Part shown: piece after piece, positions 12,167-39,516 of the stretch
Layout of the letters: every line of letters starts with the position of its first letter
How positions within the stretch are numbered: the stretch's first letter is position 1
Position numbers and translations under genes: made by a program
Assembly: GCF_029893235.1 (NCBI RefSeq)
Contig: NZ_JARXWE010000015.1
Span: forward strand, 1 to 64,000
Direction: 5' to 3'
DNA: 64,000 bases
DNA from: Dysgonomonas sp. PH5-45
Lineage (GTDB): Bacteria > Bacteroidota > Bacteroidia > Bacteroidales > Dysgonomonadaceae
The notes under the pieces: model-generated
Seen by the model: only the letters and a program-made list of their open reading frames with translations
What the model was told of the DNA's origin: nothing
Databases searched by the model: none

Positions 12167-13129
12167 TTATTTAACTTTCAATTCGTTGATAACTTTCGCC
12201 CTTATCAGGTCGGCATTTTCGACAACAAAACTTTGATGCCGTCCGCCCTCTTTTTCGTTCAGTTCGATGATAAGGTGCTTATCATCCGGTATCGTAAACT
12301 TCGGCAAAGTGAAAATCACACGTTCTGTCCGTTTTCCACCTATCAATGTCAGGTTATTATGCGCCCGGAGTGGTACAATTACCTGTTCCTGAATGGCTGT
12401 ACGTTTCGCCAGTTTTTTATCTACAATCTTGAAAGTGATAAAATCTACATCAAACGGCACATTGGATGAGTTTTTGAGTTGCATGTGGAAATAAAGCAAT
12501 CCGTTATGCGTGTAAATTCCTTTGAGTGTGTACTGAATACCGAAACGTTTGGAACCGATGTGCTTTATTTCCCTGTCATCATTTTTATAGATAGATTTCA
12601 TTATCAGTTTAACCAGTAACGGCGATTCGCTACCCAATTCCCTCATGTAAATCTCCATAGCGTTATTTGGTCTGTTCACGGCTTCTCCATCATGGATAAA
12701 GTCGGTCATTTCGACACTCAATTTCACCGGTTCATCGGCATATTTAACATTAAAGGTATAGTATGCGCCATCGTCGGTAATGACCGCCAAATTGCTTTCA
12801 CGAGAGAAGTCCCGGAGAGCAGCTTTTACACGCAATACGTTTTCCGCTCCAGCAGCTTTGGCTGCCAACAGGTCGGCAGAACCCAAATCGACATATCTTA
12901 TAGCAGACGGGAAAATGATATGCACTGTCTTTGAGAATGTAACCTCCAGTGCGTACGGTGGTATCATCCGGTTAAAGGTTAGCGGTCTGGTCAGACCGTC
13001 AAAATAATCTCCGGTAGAGGGAGAAATATTTGCTGTTTGCTGTTTTTCTACGCTCTGTTTTTCAACATCCTGAGCGTTCGCTGTGAATACGCACCCGATA
13101 ATAGCGAGTGCAAAAAGAATTTGTTTCAT
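12167..13129 (-). CDS. traN: Conjugative transposon protein TraN (VirB9-like)
   Basis: A 320-residue exported protein (signal peptide with cleavage after TANAQ). It has the TraN signature: RPLTFNRMIPPYALEVTF near the N-terminus, then FPSAIRYVDLGS and a second beta-rich domain (RFGIQYTLKGIYTHNGLLY). The organisation resembles VirB9/TrbG proteins that form the outer-membrane core ring with TraM (VirB10-like) and TraO. A copy of the CCACTAAAAAATYCAATAGT leader motif lies in the 71-base gap upstream. Confidence 0.92.
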   Translation of the reverse strand: MKQILFALAIIGCVFTANAQDVEKQSVEKQQTANISPSTGDYFDGLTRPLTFNRMIPPYALEVTFSKTVHIIFPSAIRYVDLGSADLLAAKAAGAENVLRVKAALRDFSRESNLAVITDDGAYYTFNVKYADEPVKLSVEMTDFIHDGEAVNRPNNAMEIYMRELGSESPLLVKLIMKSIYKNDDREIKHIGSKRFGIQYTLKGIYTHNGLLYFHMQLKNSSNVPFDVDFITFKIVDKKLAKRTAIQEQVIVPLRAHNNLTLIGGKRTERVIFTLPKFTIPDDKHLIIELNEKEGGRHQSFVVENADLIRAKVINELKVK

Positions 13130-13161: not shown

Positions 13162-13185
13162 TACTATTGGATTTTTTTAGTGGTA
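13162..13185 (-). promoter_or_regulatory. Leader motif upstream of traN
   Basis: On the minus strand this reads CCACTAAAAAAATCCAATAG plus TA. It has one A more than the other copies (20667, 30765, 33271, 33346, partial at 23900). It lies between traM and traN, about 33 bases before the traN ATG. Confidence 0.6.
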
Positions 13186-20298: not shown

Positions 20299-20601
20299 TT
20301 AAAGGAAGAAGGAGCGCAGGATGGTAGCGGCAACTATAAGAAATATACAGGCACCGAACCACGACGCGGCCGTTTTCGATGTATCGGGATCGCCGGAACT
20401 GAATTTTCCGTACACCTTTACACCCCCAATCAAACCGACGACCGCACCTATGGCGTATATCAATTTTGTCCCCGGATCGAAATAGCTCGTTACCATGTTC
20501 GTGGCCTCGGTAATGCCGCCAATTCCGTTACCTTGTGCGAATGCACTTGAAACAGCAGCCAGAATAAAAGCTGCCGACATTAGAAATTTTTTCTTTGTCA
20601 T
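20299..20601 (-). CDS. traE: Conjugative transposon protein TraE (DUF4134, VirB2-like)
   Basis: A 100-residue protein with a cleavable signal peptide (to about residue 22, SSAFAQ) and two hydrophobic segments (about 44-62 and 80-98) around a short polar loop (KFSSGDPDTSK). This is the pattern of VirB2-type pilins and of the DUF4134 family. It is probably the major mating-pilus or channel subunit. Its leader contains a terminator-like hairpin and a copy of the element's leader motif, so expression may be adjusted separately from traA-D. Confidence 0.9.
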   Translation of the reverse strand: MTKKKFLMSAAFILAAVSSAFAQGNGIGGITEATNMVTSYFDPGTKLIYAIGAVVGLIGGVKVYGKFSSGDPDTSKTAASWFGACIFLIVAATILRSFFL

Positions 20602-20616
20602 AATGAGAAATTGTTT

Positions 20617-20650
20617 AAAAAATGGTATCGGGGTGGATAGTCCCGATACC
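20617..20650 (-). terminator. Terminator-like hairpin in the traE leader
   Basis: On the minus strand GGTATCGGG (20650-20642) pairs with CCCGATACC (20632-20624), and six T residues follow directly (20622-20617). The run ends 16 bases before the traE ATG. A 9-bp GC-rich stem plus T-run in front of a needed gene suggests partial termination or attenuation. Confidence 0.7.
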
Positions 20651-20666
20651 GGGTTGATAAATCTTG

Positions 20667-20690
20667 TTACTATTGAATTTTTTAGTGGTT
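20667..20690 (-). promoter_or_regulatory. Leader motif upstream of traE
   Basis: The minus strand reads CCACTAAAAAATTCAATAGT plus flanks, identical over 20 bases to the inverted copy at 33271 apart from one base. It contains the small dyad ACTA-N10-TAGT and precedes the terminator-like hairpin. Confidence 0.6.
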
Positions 20691-23899: not shown

Positions 23900-23919
23900 A
23901 CCACTAAAAAATCCGACGT
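23900..23919 (+). promoter_or_regulatory. Partial leader motif directly before mobA
   Basis: ACCACTAAAAAATCCGACGT ends at the mobA ATG. The left 14 bases match the motif at topB exactly; the right half (CAATAGT) is not conserved. Confidence 0.5.
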
Positions 23920-30764: not shown

Positions 30765-30787
30765 ACCACTAAAAAATCCAATAGTAA
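30765..30787 (+). promoter_or_regulatory. Leader motif immediately before topB
   Basis: CCACTAAAAAATCCAATAGT followed by AA and the ATG. This is a full-length copy of the motif. Because it ends at the start codon, it would form the ribosome-binding region. Confidence 0.6.
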
Positions 30788-32878
30788 ATGAAAGTAATAA
30801 TTGCAGAAAAGCCAAGCGTAGCCCGTGATATAGCGGCTATCGTTGGTGCGGATAACCGCAAGGACGGTTATTTAGAAGGGAACGGATATTGTGTAACGTG
30901 GGCATTTGGCCACCTCATAGGACTGGCAATGCCGCAGGACTATGGTATTACAGGATTTCAGGCTGAAAACCTACCGATACTTCCTGCCGAATTTAAGTTA
31001 TTGCCCCGTCAGGTAAAGGACGGTAAAGAATACAAACCTGATCCGGGCACAATGAAACAACTTAAAGTTATCAAAGAGTTATTTAATAAATGTGAGTGTA
31101 TAGTGGTTGCGACCGATGCCGGAAGAGAAGGGGAGTTAATTTTCAGATATATATATAATTATCTGGAGTGTTCCCGCCCTTTCGACCGTCTTTGGATAAG
31201 CTCTCTCACGGATCAGGCTATCCGCAAAGGATTGGAGAACCTACGTCCGGGAAAAGAGTACGACAACCTGTATCGTTCGGCAAAAGCCCGGAGCCAAGCC
31301 GATTGGGTTGTCGGGATAAACGCTTCACAAGCCCTGTCAATATCAGCCGGGCACGGCGTATGGTCATTGGGAAGGGTGCAAACACCTACACTCGCCATGA
31401 TATGCAGCCGTTATCTGGAAAACAAAGATTTCAAACCGCAAACCTATTTTCAGGTAAAATTGCACACAGTAAAAGATGCAACCCAGTTCGCCGCTATTTC
31501 CACAGAACGGTTTGGCACAAAGCAGGAGGCAGACGACATCTTAAACCGTGTCCGATCCGCCGAATCCGTAAACGTGATAAGCGTCGAAAAGAAAGAAGCC
31601 AATCAGGAACCTCCATTGCTGTACGATTTGACTACTTTGCAGAAAGAAGCGAACAGCCGCCATAGTTTTTCAGCAGATAAAACCCTGTCGGTAGGCCAGT
31701 CGCTTTACGAAGCGAAACTTATTTCCTATCCAAGAACGGGAAGCCGTTATATTTCCGATGATGTTTTTGCCGAGATACCCACCCTTATCGGTCAGTTATC
31801 CGGTTACGCTCCATTCGGCAACTATGCAAAAACAATGTCAGGGGCAAGCCTGAACAGGCGTTCTGTAAACGATAAGAAAGTAACAGACCACCATGCCCTG
31901 ATTATCACTGAAAATATGCCGAAAGATATTTCAGCCGACCAACGTATCATATATGATATGATTGCTGCCCGTATGTTGGAAGCCTTTTCCGGCAAATGTA
32001 CCAAAGAAAACACAAGCGTTTCTTTGGATGCTTCGGGCATTGCTTTTTCAGTCAAAGGTAGCATTATCCTTATTCCCGGTTGGCGTGCCGTATTGAACGC
32101 ACCTGATGAAGAAAAAGGCGAAGACGATGCTCCGGCACTCCCGTCCCTGTCCGATGGCGATATACTTCCCATTAACGGAACGGATTTACTGAAGAAACAA
32201 ACCAAGCCCCGCCCATTACATACGGAAAGTAGTTTATTATCTTCTATGGAAACCTGCGGTAAAGACCTTACGGACGAAACGGAACGGGAAGCGCTCAAAG
32301 AATCGGGTATCGGAACACCTGCCACCCGTGCCGCTATTATCGAAACGCTTTTCTCCCGTGAATATATTCAGCGTGAAAAGAAATCCCTTGTTCCTACCAA
32401 TAAAGGATTGGTTGTCTATCTGGCTATCCGTGATAAAAAAATAGCGGACGTAGCTATGACCGGAGCATGGGAAAGCGCATTGAATAAAATAGCAACGGGA
32501 GAAATGGATGCCGATACCTTTCATCGAAGTATCGAAGTATATGCCGCACAGATTACCACCGAATTACTGGAGAAGAAAATCGAAGGCGGCAATACAAGAG
32601 AGAGCTGTCCATGTCCGAAATGTAAAAACGGTCAGGTAGTAATATTCCAAAAGGTTGCAAAATGTAACAATGAGGCTTGCGGACTGACAGTATTCCGGAA
32701 TAAATCAGGAAAAGACCTGACGGACGGACAACTGAAAGACCTGCTAACCAAAGGCAAGACAGGTACTATCAAAGGCTTTAAGAGTAAAGAAAATAAGCCT
32801 TTTGATGCTGCCGTAGCTTTTGATGCAGAGTATAAAGCGATATTCCAATTTGATAATTCCAAAAAGAGGAAAAAGTAA
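30788..32878 (+). CDS. topB: DNA topoisomerase III
   Basis: A 696-residue type IA topoisomerase. The N-terminal toprim domain has IIAEKPSVARDIA and the acidic TDAGREGELIFR triad. The active-site tyrosine is Y314 in ISYPRTGSRYIS. The C-terminus has a zinc-ribbon-like CPCPKCKNG...CNNEACGL segment (about 600-630) and a basic tail. Plasmid- and transposon-borne TopB relaxes or decatenates DNA during transfer or replication. The stop codon overlaps the next start (TAATG). Confidence 0.96.
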   Translation: MKVIIAEKPSVARDIAAIVGADNRKDGYLEGNGYCVTWAFGHLIGLAMPQDYGITGFQAENLPILPAEFKLLPRQVKDGKEYKPDPGTMKQLKVIKELFNKCECIVVATDAGREGELIFRYIYNYLECSRPFDRLWISSLTDQAIRKGLENLRPGKEYDNLYRSAKARSQADWVVGINASQALSISAGHGVWSLGRVQTPTLAMICSRYLENKDFKPQTYFQVKLHTVKDATQFAAISTERFGTKQEADDILNRVRSAESVNVISVEKKEANQEPPLLYDLTTLQKEANSRHSFSADKTLSVGQSLYEAKLISYPRTGSRYISDDVFAEIPTLIGQLSGYAPFGNYAKTMSGASLNRRSVNDKKVTDHHALIITENMPKDISADQRIIYDMIAARMLEAFSGKCTKENTSVSLDASGIAFSVKGSIILIPGWRAVLNAPDEEKGEDDAPALPSLSDGDILPINGTDLLKKQTKPRPLHTESSLLSSMETCGKDLTDETEREALKESGIGTPATRAAIIETLFSREYIQREKKSLVPTNKGLVVYLAIRDKKIADVAMTGAWESALNKIATGEMDADTFHRSIEVYAAQITTELLEKKIEGGNTRESCPCPKCKNGQVVIFQKVAKCNNEACGLTVFRNKSGKDLTDGQLKDLLTKGKTGTIKGFKSKENKPFDAAVAFDAEYKAIFQFDNSKKRKK

Positions 32879-33204
32879 TGAAAATAAGTTTGTTATTAAA
32901 TTTAGGACAGGCATTGACGAGAAATGCAAATCTGGATAAGCCGACTAAAATGCTATATTCTTTTATTGATTATTGTAAAAGTCATGATTTTCCATATCCT
33001 ACTACTCCAAGAATCGGAGAATTTATTTCATTGGAAGAGTTCTTTATAGAATGGGCGAAATCACTTGATGACTGCGAATTAAATATGCTTGAAAATATTA
33101 ATTCGCTAACCACGTGTATCGGTAAGGAAATTAAGGTTATCAATGTTATTCACAATGTAAATCGCTCAGTCCTGTACTGTTCTGACTTGTATAAATTGGA
33201 ATAA
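32878..33204 (+). CDS. Small hypothetical protein after topB
   Basis: A 108-residue protein whose ATG overlaps the topB stop (TAATG). It has no signal peptide or membrane segment and appears mainly helical (MLYSFIDYCKSHDFPYP, EFFIEWAKSLDDCELNML) with four cysteines. I recognise no family. Base composition is more AT-rich than topB, so it may be a later addition. Translational coupling suggests it is expressed with topB. Confidence 0.6.
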   Translation: MKISLLLNLGQALTRNANLDKPTKMLYSFIDYCKSHDFPYPTTPRIGEFISLEEFFIEWAKSLDDCELNMLENINSLTTCIGKEIKVINVIHNVNRSVLYCSDLYKLE

Positions 33205-33210
33205 AACAGC

Positions 33211-33218
33211 TATCTTTG
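33211..33218 (+). promoter_or_regulatory. Promoter -7 box for the DUF1896/methylase-helicase unit
   Basis: TATCTTTG matches TAnnTTTG, and a CTTG lies 21 bases upstream as a weak -33 element. Transcription would start near 33225, giving a leader of about 140 bases with the inverted motif pair and hairpin. Confidence 0.55.
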
Positions 33219-33270
33219 CCACTAAGAAGTTCATATGTCACAGGTTTTAATGAGAAATTATTAAATCAGG

Positions 33271-33365
33271 TGCTATTGAATTTTTTAGTGGTGGCACTGG
33301 GGAGGGATACCCCGGTGCCTTTTGCTTATCCATACCAAAAGTTTTCCACTAAAAAATTCATAGTT
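33271..33365 (+). promoter_or_regulatory. Structured leader: inverted motif pair around a terminator-like hairpin
   Basis: The leader motif occurs in reverse at 33271-33292 and forward at 33346-33365, ending at the ATG. TGAATTTTTTAGTGG and CCACTAAAAAATTCA can pair perfectly over 15 bases. Between them a GC-rich hairpin (GGCACTGGGG 33293-33302 with CCCCGGTGCC 33310-33319, one G-T pair) is followed by TTTTGC. A degenerate third copy (CCACTAAGAAGTTCA) at 33219-33233 could compete for the same pairing. Confidence 0.6.
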
Positions 33366-33812
33366 ATGAAATACAATTCAAATTTAGAGCCTGCGGAAAT
33401 GTCGTACTTCCGGCTCAATCTACTTTCTTATTTACGTGATTCCCACCCCGACAAAGCAAATGACCTTTCATTTATTGCCGGACGTGGGGATATGGCAGCC
33501 GAAGCGTACAGCGAAGCAGTAAAAAGCGGTTTAGACCATATTCAAGCTGCCGAAATTGCAAACGAAGCCTTATTCAAAGGCTTACACTTTTCTCCTTATA
33601 ATATAGTAGTTGAAATACTCTGGAATGAGTTTTTCGACGAAGTTTCTCCGGGTGATGCCCAGGCAAAGGCAAAGGAACTAATGCCCGAATGTCAGGCGGT
33701 ATTTGCTAAATACAACCTTAGTGATGATTATGCCGAAACGACAGAGTACCAGTCGCTTTATACAGAGCTTGTCGGCACAATCCTGATACTGCTCGAAAAT
33801 GAGTTACAATAA
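33366..33812 (+). CDS. DUF1896 family protein
   Basis: A 148-residue soluble, acidic protein matching the DUF1896 family of Bacteroides conjugative transposons ([18 protein letters not shown], then [19 protein letters not shown] and [13 protein letters not shown]). I chose the ATG at 33366 over upstream starts, because the family begins there and the upstream part is the structured leader. It overlaps the methylase-helicase gene by 14 bases and probably forms a unit with it. Function unknown. Confidence 0.85.
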
Positions 33813-36800
33813 GCGAACTCATTTGCGTCAGAATATTGACGCAATAAAGTTAGCGTTAAGGCTCGACAAGGAACAAAAAAAGGCAACACCCGAAGAACGG
33901 GAAATACTCGCAAAATATTCAGGCTTCGGAGGGATTAAGGCAATCCTTAACCCTGCCGACAAACCCGAAGATATTGAGCGGTGGTCTAAATCCGAAGTCG
34001 AGCTTTTTCCGTTGGTGCAGGAACTCCACGAGGTACTCCGTGAAAGTTCTCCCACACCGGAAGTTTACAAACGCTATGTCAGCTCCCTGAAAAGTTCTAT
34101 CCTTACGGCATTTTATACGCCGAAGCCTGTTATTGATGCGTTAGCGGATGCACTAAAGGATAACGGGATAACACCGACACGCTTTTTAGAACCCAGTGCC
34201 GGAACAGGTGCGTTTATTTCTTCTTTCAAAGATATTGCACCTGAAGCTAAAGTAACCAGTTTTGAAAAAGACCTGCTGACAGGTAAAATTCTATCGCACC
34301 TTTATCCTGATGATAAGGTACGGATTGAAGGTTACGAAAAAATGGAAGGACGCTATTCACAGCATTTTGATGTGATTGCATCCAATATCCCTTTTGGCGA
34401 TGTTTCAGTATTCGATCCGCTACTTTCCAATCATGAAATACCCGCCGTCAAACAATCGACACAGGCGATACACAACTACTTTTTTGTAAAAAGTGTTATG
34501 TCGGCCAGAGAGGGCGGGTTAATCGCCTTTATTACCAGTCAGGGCGTACTTAATTCGGAACAGAACAAGCCGATACGGGAATACCTGATGAACACCTGCG
34601 ATGTTGTTTCCGCTATCCGTTTGCCGAACAACCTCTTTTCCGACCATGCCGGAACTGATGTCGGCAGCGACCTGATTGTATTACAACGGAATAATAAAAA
34701 TATAGTTCCAAGCCAACGACAGCAGGATTTTATCGAATCCCGCAAATTATCTAACGGCATATCTATTAATAACCTGTTCCGTGATTTCAACAGAGTAGTA
34801 CAAACCCGTTCCAAAATCGACACCGATCCATACGGCAAACCTGCTATTGTTTTTACCCATGAAGGCGGTATTGAGGGAATAGCCACAGATTTGCGGCAAA
34901 TGCTGAAAGATGATTTTTCAAAACATTTGGATTTGCAGCGTTACCAAAACTATGCACAGGAAAACCCGGCACAGTCGGTAACACAACAATCTCAATCTGC
35001 AAAATTGGATAACAGCAATCAGATAACCGAACAGGATATTCAGGAATTAAGTGATTACGCTTCTGAAATGGACAGAAAACTGTATGCCGAACGTCCGCCA
35101 CAACCCGAAGATTTTGGAATTAAAGAAAAAAAGCAGAATGAAACAGAAGAAAGACAACCGGCTGCTCCAAATACTTTTAGAGGTACTCTTTTCGATATGG
35201 ATGATCCTGCCATTAAAAAAGCGCCGACTACGGAGGCGAAACCCCAGTCCGTAACGCAAGAACCATTAATAACGCTCTATGACCTTTTCGGCTTTACCCA
35301 AGAGGAACGCAGTCAGGTAAACAAACCCAAAAAGAGAGGTAGAAAATCCAAATTACAGGCAAGCAAGTCAAAGGAACTGCCGTTTATGGACTGGCGGGAA
35401 GAAATGGCGCATAATGCAGCGCAGCAACGGGAAAAGCTACAACAGGAAAGCGTCGAGGCCTACCCCGTATTCGATGCCCGTCGGGAAGAACAGTTGGAAC
35501 GGCTGAAAGAGGAAGCCGAACGGGAACAGCAGGAACGCATGAAACCTGTTCCTTTCCTATTGGAAGATATACCGTCCCATTACCGTGATGGCTCACTTGT
35601 TACCGACGAAAATAATCGTATCGGTTATTTGCGTGATTTGAATGGATTTCAGCCGATGTTCCATCCGCTTCAGCTCACCGGAACACAGCAGGCGAAAGCA
35701 TCCCTTTATATTGAAATACGGGACACTTATCACCACCTGTACAGCAACGAAGCAACAAGGTTGGAAGCCAATCCTGCATTAAGGGAAATGCTTAACCGGC
35801 TGTATGATGATTTTACCCGCCGTTTCGGAAATATAAACGACGCAAAAAATCTTAGCCTTATAAAAATGGATGCCGGAGGAACGGAAATTCTTTCTCTGGA
35901 AAGGTATATCGATGGTAAAGCCGTCAAAGCAGATATATTTCAACAACCGGTTGCCTTTAATCCCAATGAGATTACCCATGCCGATAATGCACGGGAAGCC
36001 CTGACCGCTTCGCTCAATAAACATGCAACGGTAAACCTTGAATATATGGCAGGGCTTACAGGGGGGACTTCGGATGAAATACTGGAGGAACTCAAAGAGC
36101 AGGTATTTTTCAATCCAATGATAGGCTCTTATGAAATTAAAGACAAGTTCATAAGTGGTAATGTTATCTCCAAAGCGGAACACGTAGAGCGGTATATAGA
36201 AAACCACCCCGACAATGAAGCGGCAAAAGAATCATTAAAGGCTCTGAAAGAAGCAATACCCCGTCCGATAGCATTCGAAGATTTGGATTTTAATTTCGGA
36301 GAACGGTGGATACCGTCGGGCATTTACAGCAAATACGCTTCACATTTGTTTGATACGAATGTATCGGTGCATTATGCTCAAAGCCGTGATGAATACACGC
36401 TCAAAGCCGACAGCAAAAATATCAAGATATGGGATCAGTACGCTGTTAAGGCAACAAGCCGGACTTTCGACGGTATCGCCCTGATGAAACACGCCTTGCA
36501 TAATACCTCTCCTGATATAACAAAGAAAGTCAATAAGTTGATTGACGGGGAAATAAAAGAGGTCAAGGTACGTGATTCCGAATCTATTCAACTCGCCAAT
36601 TCCAAGATTGACGAGATACGGAACGGTTTCGTTGAATGGCTTAACGAACAATCACCGGAGTTCAAAGACCGACTGGCAGATAAATACAACCGTACATTTA
36701 ATTGTTTCGTCCGTCCGGAGTATGACGGAAGCCACCAAGAGTTTCCGGGACTGGATCTGAAAGGCTTGGGTATTCCCGACCTATACAATAGCCAAAAGGA

Positions 36801-39516
36801 TGCAATTTGGATGGATAAACTCAATGGCGGGGGTATTATCGACCACGAAGTCGGGGGCGGTAAAACCCTGATAATGTGTGTAAGCGCCTACGAGAAAAAA
36901 CGTTTGGGATTGGTAAATAAACCGCTCATTATGGCGCTCAAAGCCAATGTTCATGAAATAGCCCAAACTTTCTGTACGGCTTACCCCAATGCAAAAGTGT
37001 TGTATCCGGGTAAAGAAGATTTCACCCCTGCTAAACGGGCGAAGATTTTCAACGAAATGAAGAATAACAACTGGGATGCAATCATTTTAACACACGAACA
37101 GTTTGGTATGATACCCCAGTCACCCGAAATTCAGCAACGGATATTACAGGCGGAACTCGATAGCGTAGAAGAAAATCTGGAAGTGTTACGGGCACAAGGA
37201 AAGGAGATTTCCCGTGCTATGGAAAAAGGTTTAGTTAAAAGACAATTAAACCTTGAAGCCAAATTGGAAAATATAACCTACCAGATTGAGAACCGCAAGG
37301 ATGACACCGTAGATTTCCGTCTTATGGGTATCGACCACTTGTATGTTGATGAGAGCCACCGATTCAAGAACCTGACCTTTACAACCCGACACGACAGGGT
37401 TGCAGGTCTGGGTAATGCCGAAGGCTCACAACGTGCCTTGAATATGCTTTTTGCCCTGCGTACCATTCAGGACAGGACGGGAAAAGATTTGGGAGCCACT
37501 TTTCTTTCAGGCACAACCATTTCCAACAGTTTGACAGAGTTATACTTGCTTTTCAAGTATCTCCGGCCGAACGAACTGGAACGACAGGGTATTAATACAT
37601 TCGATGCGTGGGCGGCAATCTTCGCCAAAAAGTCGATAGACTACGAATTTTCGGTAACGAATGAAATTGTGCAAAAAGAACGCTTTCGGTATTTTATCAA
37701 AGTACCCGAATTGGCAGCTTTTTATGCCGAAATAACAGACTATCGTTCTGCGGAGGATATTGGTATCGACCGCCCTGTAAAGAATGAAATTCTGCATAAT
37801 ATTCCACCAACACCCGACCAACAGGAGTTTATACAAAAGTTGGTAGAGTTCGCCAAAACAGGTAAAGGTGAAATATTAGGACGTGCGCCATTATCGGAAA
37901 GCGAAGAAAAAGCAAAAATGCTTATCGCTACCGATTACGCGCGAAAGATGTCCCTCGATATGCGACTGATTGATCCAGTTAAATATGGCGACCATGTGGA
38001 CAACAAGGCTTCCCATGTGGCTAAAATGGTATCAGACTACTACACAAAATTCAAAGACCACAAAGCAACCCAGTTCGTTTTCTCCGATTTAGGCACTTAC
38101 AAACCCGGAGAATGGAACCCATGCTCCGAGATAAAGCGTAAACTGGTGGATGACTATGGAATCCCGGCTCACGAAATACGCTTTATTCAGGAAGCCAAAA
38201 CGGATAAGGCTCGTAAAACCATGATTAAGGATATGAACGAGGGTAAAATCCGTGTATTGTTCGGCTCTACCGAAATGTTGGGAACCGGAGTAAACGCCCA
38301 GAAACGATGCGTTGCAATCCACCATTTAGATGCGCCTTGGCGACCGTCAGACTTGGAACAGCGGGACGGTCGGGGCATTCGCAAGGGCAATGAAATTGCG
38401 AAGCTATATGCGGATAATAAAGTAGATGTACTTATCTATGCTGTGGAAAAATCGTTAGATGCGTACAAGTTCGGTTTACTTCACAACAAGCAGCTTTTCA
38501 TTCGCCAGTTGAAAAATAATTCACTGGGTAGCCGTACTATCGACGAGGGAAGTATGGACGAAAAAGGCGGTATGAACTTCTCTGAATATGTGGCAATTCT
38601 TTCCGGCAATACCGAATTACTGGAGAAAGCACGATTGGAAAAGAAAATCGCTTCTTTGGAATCCGAACGACAGGCATTCATGCGTGGCAAGTCATCATCA
38701 CGTTACAAATTGGAGGATATTATATCCAATGTAGAGCAAAACAACGGGTTTATTAGCCGTATATCCAAAGATATTGAAGCGTTTAACACCCGTGTTCAGC
38801 ATCAGCCGGACGGTATTACCCGCCTGAATCCTGTTCAGTTAGACGGATTACAGGGCAGTAACCCAAAAGAAGTCGGGCTGAAGCTAAATGAAATAGCCGA
38901 CAAAGCCCGCACACATGGAGCGCATGAGAAAATTGGTACACTTTACGGTTTTGATTTAATGGTAAAATCTGAAACCACTAATAAAGATGGCTTCGATGTT
39001 ATACAAAATCGTTTCTTTATTAAGGGAGAGGGCAATATTCTCTACAATTATAATCACGGGGTAATGGCTACTGATCCGAAGACCGCAGCACAAAATTTCC
39101 TGAATGCACTCGATACCATGCCTAAACTTTTGGAGAAGTATCAAGCGGATAATGAGAAGTTGCAAAAGGATATACCTGTACTGAAAGAAGTAGTCGAAGG
39201 TACTTGGCGTAAGGAACCGGAACTGAAAACCCTGAAAGACGAGTTAATAAAGTTGGATAGGGAAATTCAGCTCTCACTTACTCCAATCAGTGAAACTGAA
39301 GGACAAGCGGAAACTGTACCTGATAAGACTGTTTCTACTACCAATCAGAACCAGTCGCAAGGCAAGACCGAAACATCGACTGTTCGGGATGCACCATTGC
39401 CAAATACTTTGCAGGGAGTTAAAGAAATAATGGGCGATAGGCTTGTTATTGCATCGGTGGGTGGTAGTCCGCCGAAAGTGGATAAAAAGGATTCTTCTAA
39501 AAATTTCAAACTGTAA
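33799..39516 (+). CDS. N6-DNA-methylase-like/SNF2-type helicase fusion (DarB-like)
   Basis: A 1905-residue fusion. The N-terminal methyltransferase domain has the SAM motif [11 protein letters not shown] (about 129-139) and a NIPF motif (N196) in place of the catalytic NPPF/Y. The middle (about 460-600) is a charged, Gln-rich linker. The C-terminal superfamily 2 helicase has Walker A EVGGGKTL (about 1017-1024), a DESH box (about 1184) and motif [13 protein letters not shown] (about 1520). A coiled-coil tail follows. The architecture resembles phage P1 DarB and similar proteins that accompany mobile DNA and protect it from restriction. It lies in the same operon as DUF1896. Confidence 0.9.

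Follow-up and report, generated by a model that had tools for sequence, protein, structure and literature searches.

A probable divergent RteR-type small RNA gene in a Dysgonomonas conjugative element, with a single seed matching boxes before five element genes

Few small RNAs are known to control conjugation. RteR of CTnDOT (RF04181; Waters and Salyers 2012, as cited in PMC7366714 and PMC9299015) is one of them, its target being the CTnDOT tra operon according to PMC7366714 and PMC9299015; discoordinate tra expression is also reported for RteR in PMC7366714. Two other RNA systems are close enough to be compared. FinP, the antisense RNA of F-like plasmids, has one target, traJ, opposite which it is encoded (PMC9299015), and the tetQ leader of CTnDOT is a translational attenuator that acts in cis (PMC5418344). 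In the literature that we searched, a scope lying outside the primary RteR papers, we found no description of RteR target boxes or of their covariation.

Here we analyse a stretch of 64,000 nucleotides of Dysgonomonas sp. PH5-45 (the window), in which a locus with an RF04181 match encodes, with a probability that we put at about 85%, a divergent RteR that serves a CTnDOT-like conjugative transposon as an antisense RNA acting in trans. It resembles the CTnDOT RNA in its full-length covariance match, its predicted size of about 90-100 nt, its place downstream of topB/exc, its fold-back 5′ arm, its terminator and its residence in an element with a tra operon. It differs by its score, which lies below the gathering score, by a seed of the AGTGG and not the TGTGG type, and by a longer middle part. 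Like FinP, it would control the transfer genes of its own conjugative element through pairing, but with one seed addressed to several boxes in trans. With the tetQ leader it has in common that pairing in a leader would control genes of such elements; the window element needs no leader mechanism of the tetQ kind.

The RteR-like locus and its element

The window carries minus-strand tra genes, mobA and mobB, a DUF3945 gene and topB, and the RteR-type gene (Table 1) lies downstream of exc/topB in this CTnDOT-like element, a gene order common to many relatives, in several of which it directly follows the topB stop codon. In the window, topB and rteR are separated by a 108-aa ORF (32878-33204, + strand) without a Pfam or NCBIfam match; in the close relative G027C8, rteR comes directly after topB without this ORF.

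Table 1. Features of the window relevant to the RteR-type RNA (duplex energies are predicted, in kcal/mol; leader counts give the unique leaders with an own-seed box)
Feature	Position	Strand	Remarks
traN leader box	13168-13183	-	38 nt upstream of ATG at 13129; duplex -15.5; 11/16 unique leaders
Conserved hairpin in traE leader	20624-20650	-	separates box from start codon; loop ACUAUCCA; in 11 sequences, 6 of its 9 pairs show changes on both sides
traE leader box	20673-20688	-	71 nt upstream of ATG at 20601; full 16-nt seed complement; duplex -22.9; 16/18 unique leaders
Box before mobA	23901-23916	+	ATG 23920; duplex -17.1; 13/23 unique leaders
Box before topB/exc	30766-30781	+	ATG 30788; duplex -18.4; 24/34 unique leaders
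DNA topoisomerase III (topB, Exc-like)	30788-32878	+	
Possible -33 element (TTG)	33188-33190	+	20-21 nt 5′ of -7 box; weak sequence reading; upstream regions vary among relatives
Predicted Bacteroides-type -7 promoter box	33211-33218	+	TATCTTTG; TAnnTTTG type
5′ arm	33219-33233	+	self-complement of seed with G·U pairs; 87% pairing; first bases CCACT may precede transcription start
RteR-type small RNA gene (probable)	33225-33322	+	bounds from RF04181 match
Seed	33276-33291	+	TTGAATTTTTTAGTGG; complementary to boxes 5′ of five genes; varies in step with them from element to element
Intrinsic terminator hairpin (33293-33319) and T run	33293-33323	+	kept in relatives with altered stem sequence
Box before DUF1896	33346-33361	+	ATG 33366; 15 bp with seed; duplex -18.9; 17/22 unique leaders
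DUF1896 protein	33366-33812	+	PF08989, E 2e-50
Methylase/helicase gene	33799-39516		after DUF1896

In a permissive Rfam scan of 251 bases the RF04181 model matched the locus over positions 1-84 of 84 (36.2 bits, E 2.6e-4). The gathering score of 72 bits is not reached, and we therefore treat the window locus as an RteR-like homologue and not as a curated member. With the E cut-off likewise set at 0.05, none of 14 control genomes gave an RF04181 match, and a locus of the same architecture in another genome of the family (G029) scored 83 bits. With our own covariance model R1, for which the window served among the training sequences, the locus scored 88.4 bits; searches with this model detected the RNA in 32 of the 101 genomes examined from the same family, and in 19 of 393 that were sampled from the order. 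A pattern scan added loci in named Bacteroides, Phocaeicola, Parabacteroides, Prevotella, Alistipes and others, with 120 named-genome matches, five of which were left out upon failing a hairpin check; a low-scoring match in G011 was also excluded. The comparison set comprised 42 RteR-like loci with 23 different seeds. Two additional RteR-like loci, G000:C35:18967-19064 (L001) and G000:C34:18399-18484 (L003), are present in the genome from which the window comes. Their seeds differ (TGAATTTTTTTAGTGG and ATTGATCTTTTAGTGG), and each has a box that matches its seed 5′ of its own topB.

Read in the 5′ to 3′ direction, the locus consists of a -7 box, a 5′ arm that would hide the seed, the seed itself and a terminator. 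The -7 box has the form TAnnTTTG in 31 of the 42 loci and TAnnTTTA or close variants in the remainder, a tally that is not independent of the pattern by which the loci were delimited, since this already contained a related box. From its position, transcription probably starts near 33222-33226; a start downstream of 33292, which a previous sequence-only reading had named as incompatible with its proposal, is not indicated. The RNA presumably exists as a separate transcript that probably ends near 33322, at its own terminator, a hairpin of 10 bp followed by TTTTGCTTAT. A sigma-70-type promoter scan was of no use for Bacteroidota. The predicted fold of the stretch (-54.1 kcal/mol, z = -4.43) was equalled by none of 200 shuffles.

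Seed-complementary boxes and their covariation

The trans-acting reading is based on sequence, on synteny, on the positions of the seed and its boxes, and on the covariation between them. In the window element the seed complement recurs 5′ of traE, traN, mobA, topB and DUF1896, the first four being copies absent from the sequence-only reading. The 2.65-Mb genome has five exact copies of the box CCACTAAAAAATYC, all within the element; four stand at the starts of these genes and the fifth is the seed itself. The reversed control pattern does not occur in the genome, and the traN box is a one-mismatch form. With up to three mismatches allowed, the window holds six copies of the motif against 1.2 expected. 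Predicted duplexes with the seed range from -15.5 to -22.9 kcal/mol at the five boxes, compared with -5.6 to -11.6 at the leaders of seven other element genes. At mobA, topB and DUF1896 the box stands a few nucleotides 5′ of the ATG in most elements (4-6 nt for DUF1896 in the window), at traE it lies 61-83 nt upstream across elements, and at traN 5-38 nt.

Across the 42 loci and 23 seeds, the boxes match the seed of their own element. In a strict scan of the 42 elements, 84 of the 90 own-seed sites stood before the five genes and the remaining six 5′ of other ORFs. This density, 2.14 sites per element, compares with 0.02 when the boxes are shuffled. The strict scan replaced one with unlimited G·U credit, which was uninformative, with 23.9 sites per element for the own box and 19.5 after shuffling. 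Among the unique leaders of control genes, own-seed boxes preceded none of 65 for traG, traJ, traK and traM, 2 of 36 for DUF3945, 1 of 25 for mobC and 4 of 21 for traA; some elements show a weak own-seed signal at TraA, MobC and TraM.

When the seeds were permuted among the 23 classes, the observed score was never reached in 5000 trials for any of the five genes, a test which leaves common descent partly in, as related elements are not independent. Columns outside the site selection pair at 86%, compared with 45% after permutation (0 of 5000 permutations), and TA, GC, AT, CG and G·U pairs interchange at one of these columns; columns 9 and 10 keep 58 of 60 pairs. With the seeds collapsed to four groups, the observed value was reached by the identity arrangement only, that is about 1 in 24. 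Named genomes with other seeds have the same boxes at topB and DUF1896. Some seed classes have degenerate boxes, and the Prevotella-type elements of class CTGCGGATTTTAGTGG have only these; no mobA box was found in the G027C4, G067a, G158 and G355-type elements. In the G264 and G483C22 elements, own-seed boxes on the minus strand also precede another ORF, with an MMNENN start, a possible sixth target in that lineage.

Cis leader or DNA operator

The sequence-only reading had taken the stretch for a switch-like leader of the DUF1896 operon. Its pairings hold: the arms 33277-33291 (TGAATTTTTTAGTGG) and 33346-33360 (CCACTAAAAAATTCA) are 100% complementary over 15 nt and flank the terminator hairpin, and the third, degenerate copy, our 5′ arm, pairs with the same seed through two G·U. 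A box does precede the DUF1896 start, but the stretch is probably for the most part a separate RteR gene with a full-length RF04181 match and its own terminator. A ligand-sensing riboswitch has no support from Rfam, which gave no match at gathering score. The comparison with relatives, proposed at the time as a check, did reveal covariation, but this extends beyond a single leader and links the seed in trans to the boxes of many genes.

A cis attenuator of the DUF1896 operon would act on read-through RNA, where the seed would pair with the downstream box and hide the start while the 5′ arm competes and the hairpin terminates. We regard this as unlikely as the main function, even though the cis pairing is perfect over 15 bp, the stretch folds strongly, no clear TAnnTTTG box lies between the terminator and DUF1896 in the window, and in 20 of the 42 loci the seed and the DUF1896 start are no more than about 160 nt apart. 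In four other loci the DUF1896 start is 0.7-1.4 kb away and in 18 none was found, yet the RNA, the seed and the boxes of the other genes are kept there, so that the cis pairing is not the conserved core. Moreover, the element has boxes at four other genes, at distances of up to 20 kb and in two cases on the opposite strand, the gene downstream varies in relatives, and the Rfam scan yielded neither a sensor part nor a ligand class. On read-through RNA, the stem of seed and DUF1896 box may keep DUF1896 off as a side effect.

Another explanation would make the box the DNA operator of an element-encoded regulator, the small RNA merely containing a copy. A repeated box, exclusive to the element and co-evolving within each element, is what such an operator would also produce. 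We nevertheless hold it to be very improbable, as every box has one orientation relative to its gene and lies shortly before the start codon, and as the small RNA carries the box complement directly 5′ of a terminator. The pattern of substitutions also argues against an operator: of the changes at A or C positions of the boxes, 7 are A>G, 14 are C>T and 8 are of other kinds, and the 5′ arm diverges from the target mainly by A>G, which preserves RNA pairing. In the window its two A>G changes relative to the seed complement give the G·U pairs, and a comparison of 25 distinct arm/seed sets shows A within its first 11 bases replaced by G 34 times, by T 13 times and never by C. Silencing at many gene starts by a trans-acting antisense RNA is thus the best reading, with control of DUF1896 in cis as secondary.

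Proposed silencing by one seed at several boxes

In the trans-acting reading, we infer repression as the outcome, by the following steps. The 5′ arm would fold onto the seed, leaving a conserved GUGG beside the terminator open as a toehold. Since the arm copies the target in a form weakened by wobble pairs, it could give way to a true target. The predicted arm/seed pairing without CCACT is -7.5 kcal/mol, versus -15.5 to -22.9 for the targets, but with a transcription start at 33219 it would be -18.9, equal to several targets, so that the start site matters for this step. The freed seed would pair with the box CCACTAAAAAATTC, which in the transfer operon precedes traE and traN and which also stands 5′ of the mobilisation gene mobA, the excision gene topB/exc and DUF1896 of the methylase/helicase operon. 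For mobA, topB and DUF1896, this duplex would span the A-rich ribosome entry region just before the ATG and block translation; in Bacteroides an A-rich region 5′ of the start is important for translation (PMC7366714). The duplexes of traE and traN would form further upstream, in leaders within the operon, so that those genes would be lowered and traA-D left untouched. Such internal boxes would give discoordinate expression, matching what PMC7366714 relates of RteR.

More tentatively, and with a little less than even odds in our judgement, RteR-type RNAs may in general be single-seed, multi-target silencers whose seed and boxes drift together. Each element family would then have a private address, and co-resident elements, such as those of the three rteR loci with three seeds in this genome, would be insulated or would silence one another according to seed match. 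If true, this would amount to an RNA-based incompatibility between conjugative transposons. The boxes, their positions and their covariation provide exact base-pair predictions for how transfer, mobilisation and excision are kept silent in a large family of gut-bacterial conjugative transposons, and thereby an explanation, open to direct test, of the way in which RteR-family RNAs block DNA transfer.

The hairpin in the traE leader has a near-invariant GGACUAUCCACC and a covarying stem. Kissing of its loop (ACUAUCC) with the RteR terminator loop (AGGGAUA) was considered and rejected, as it fits the window type and is lost in G016-type elements. A loop resembling that of the traE-leader hairpin is also present in the traN leader of CTnDOT-like elements.
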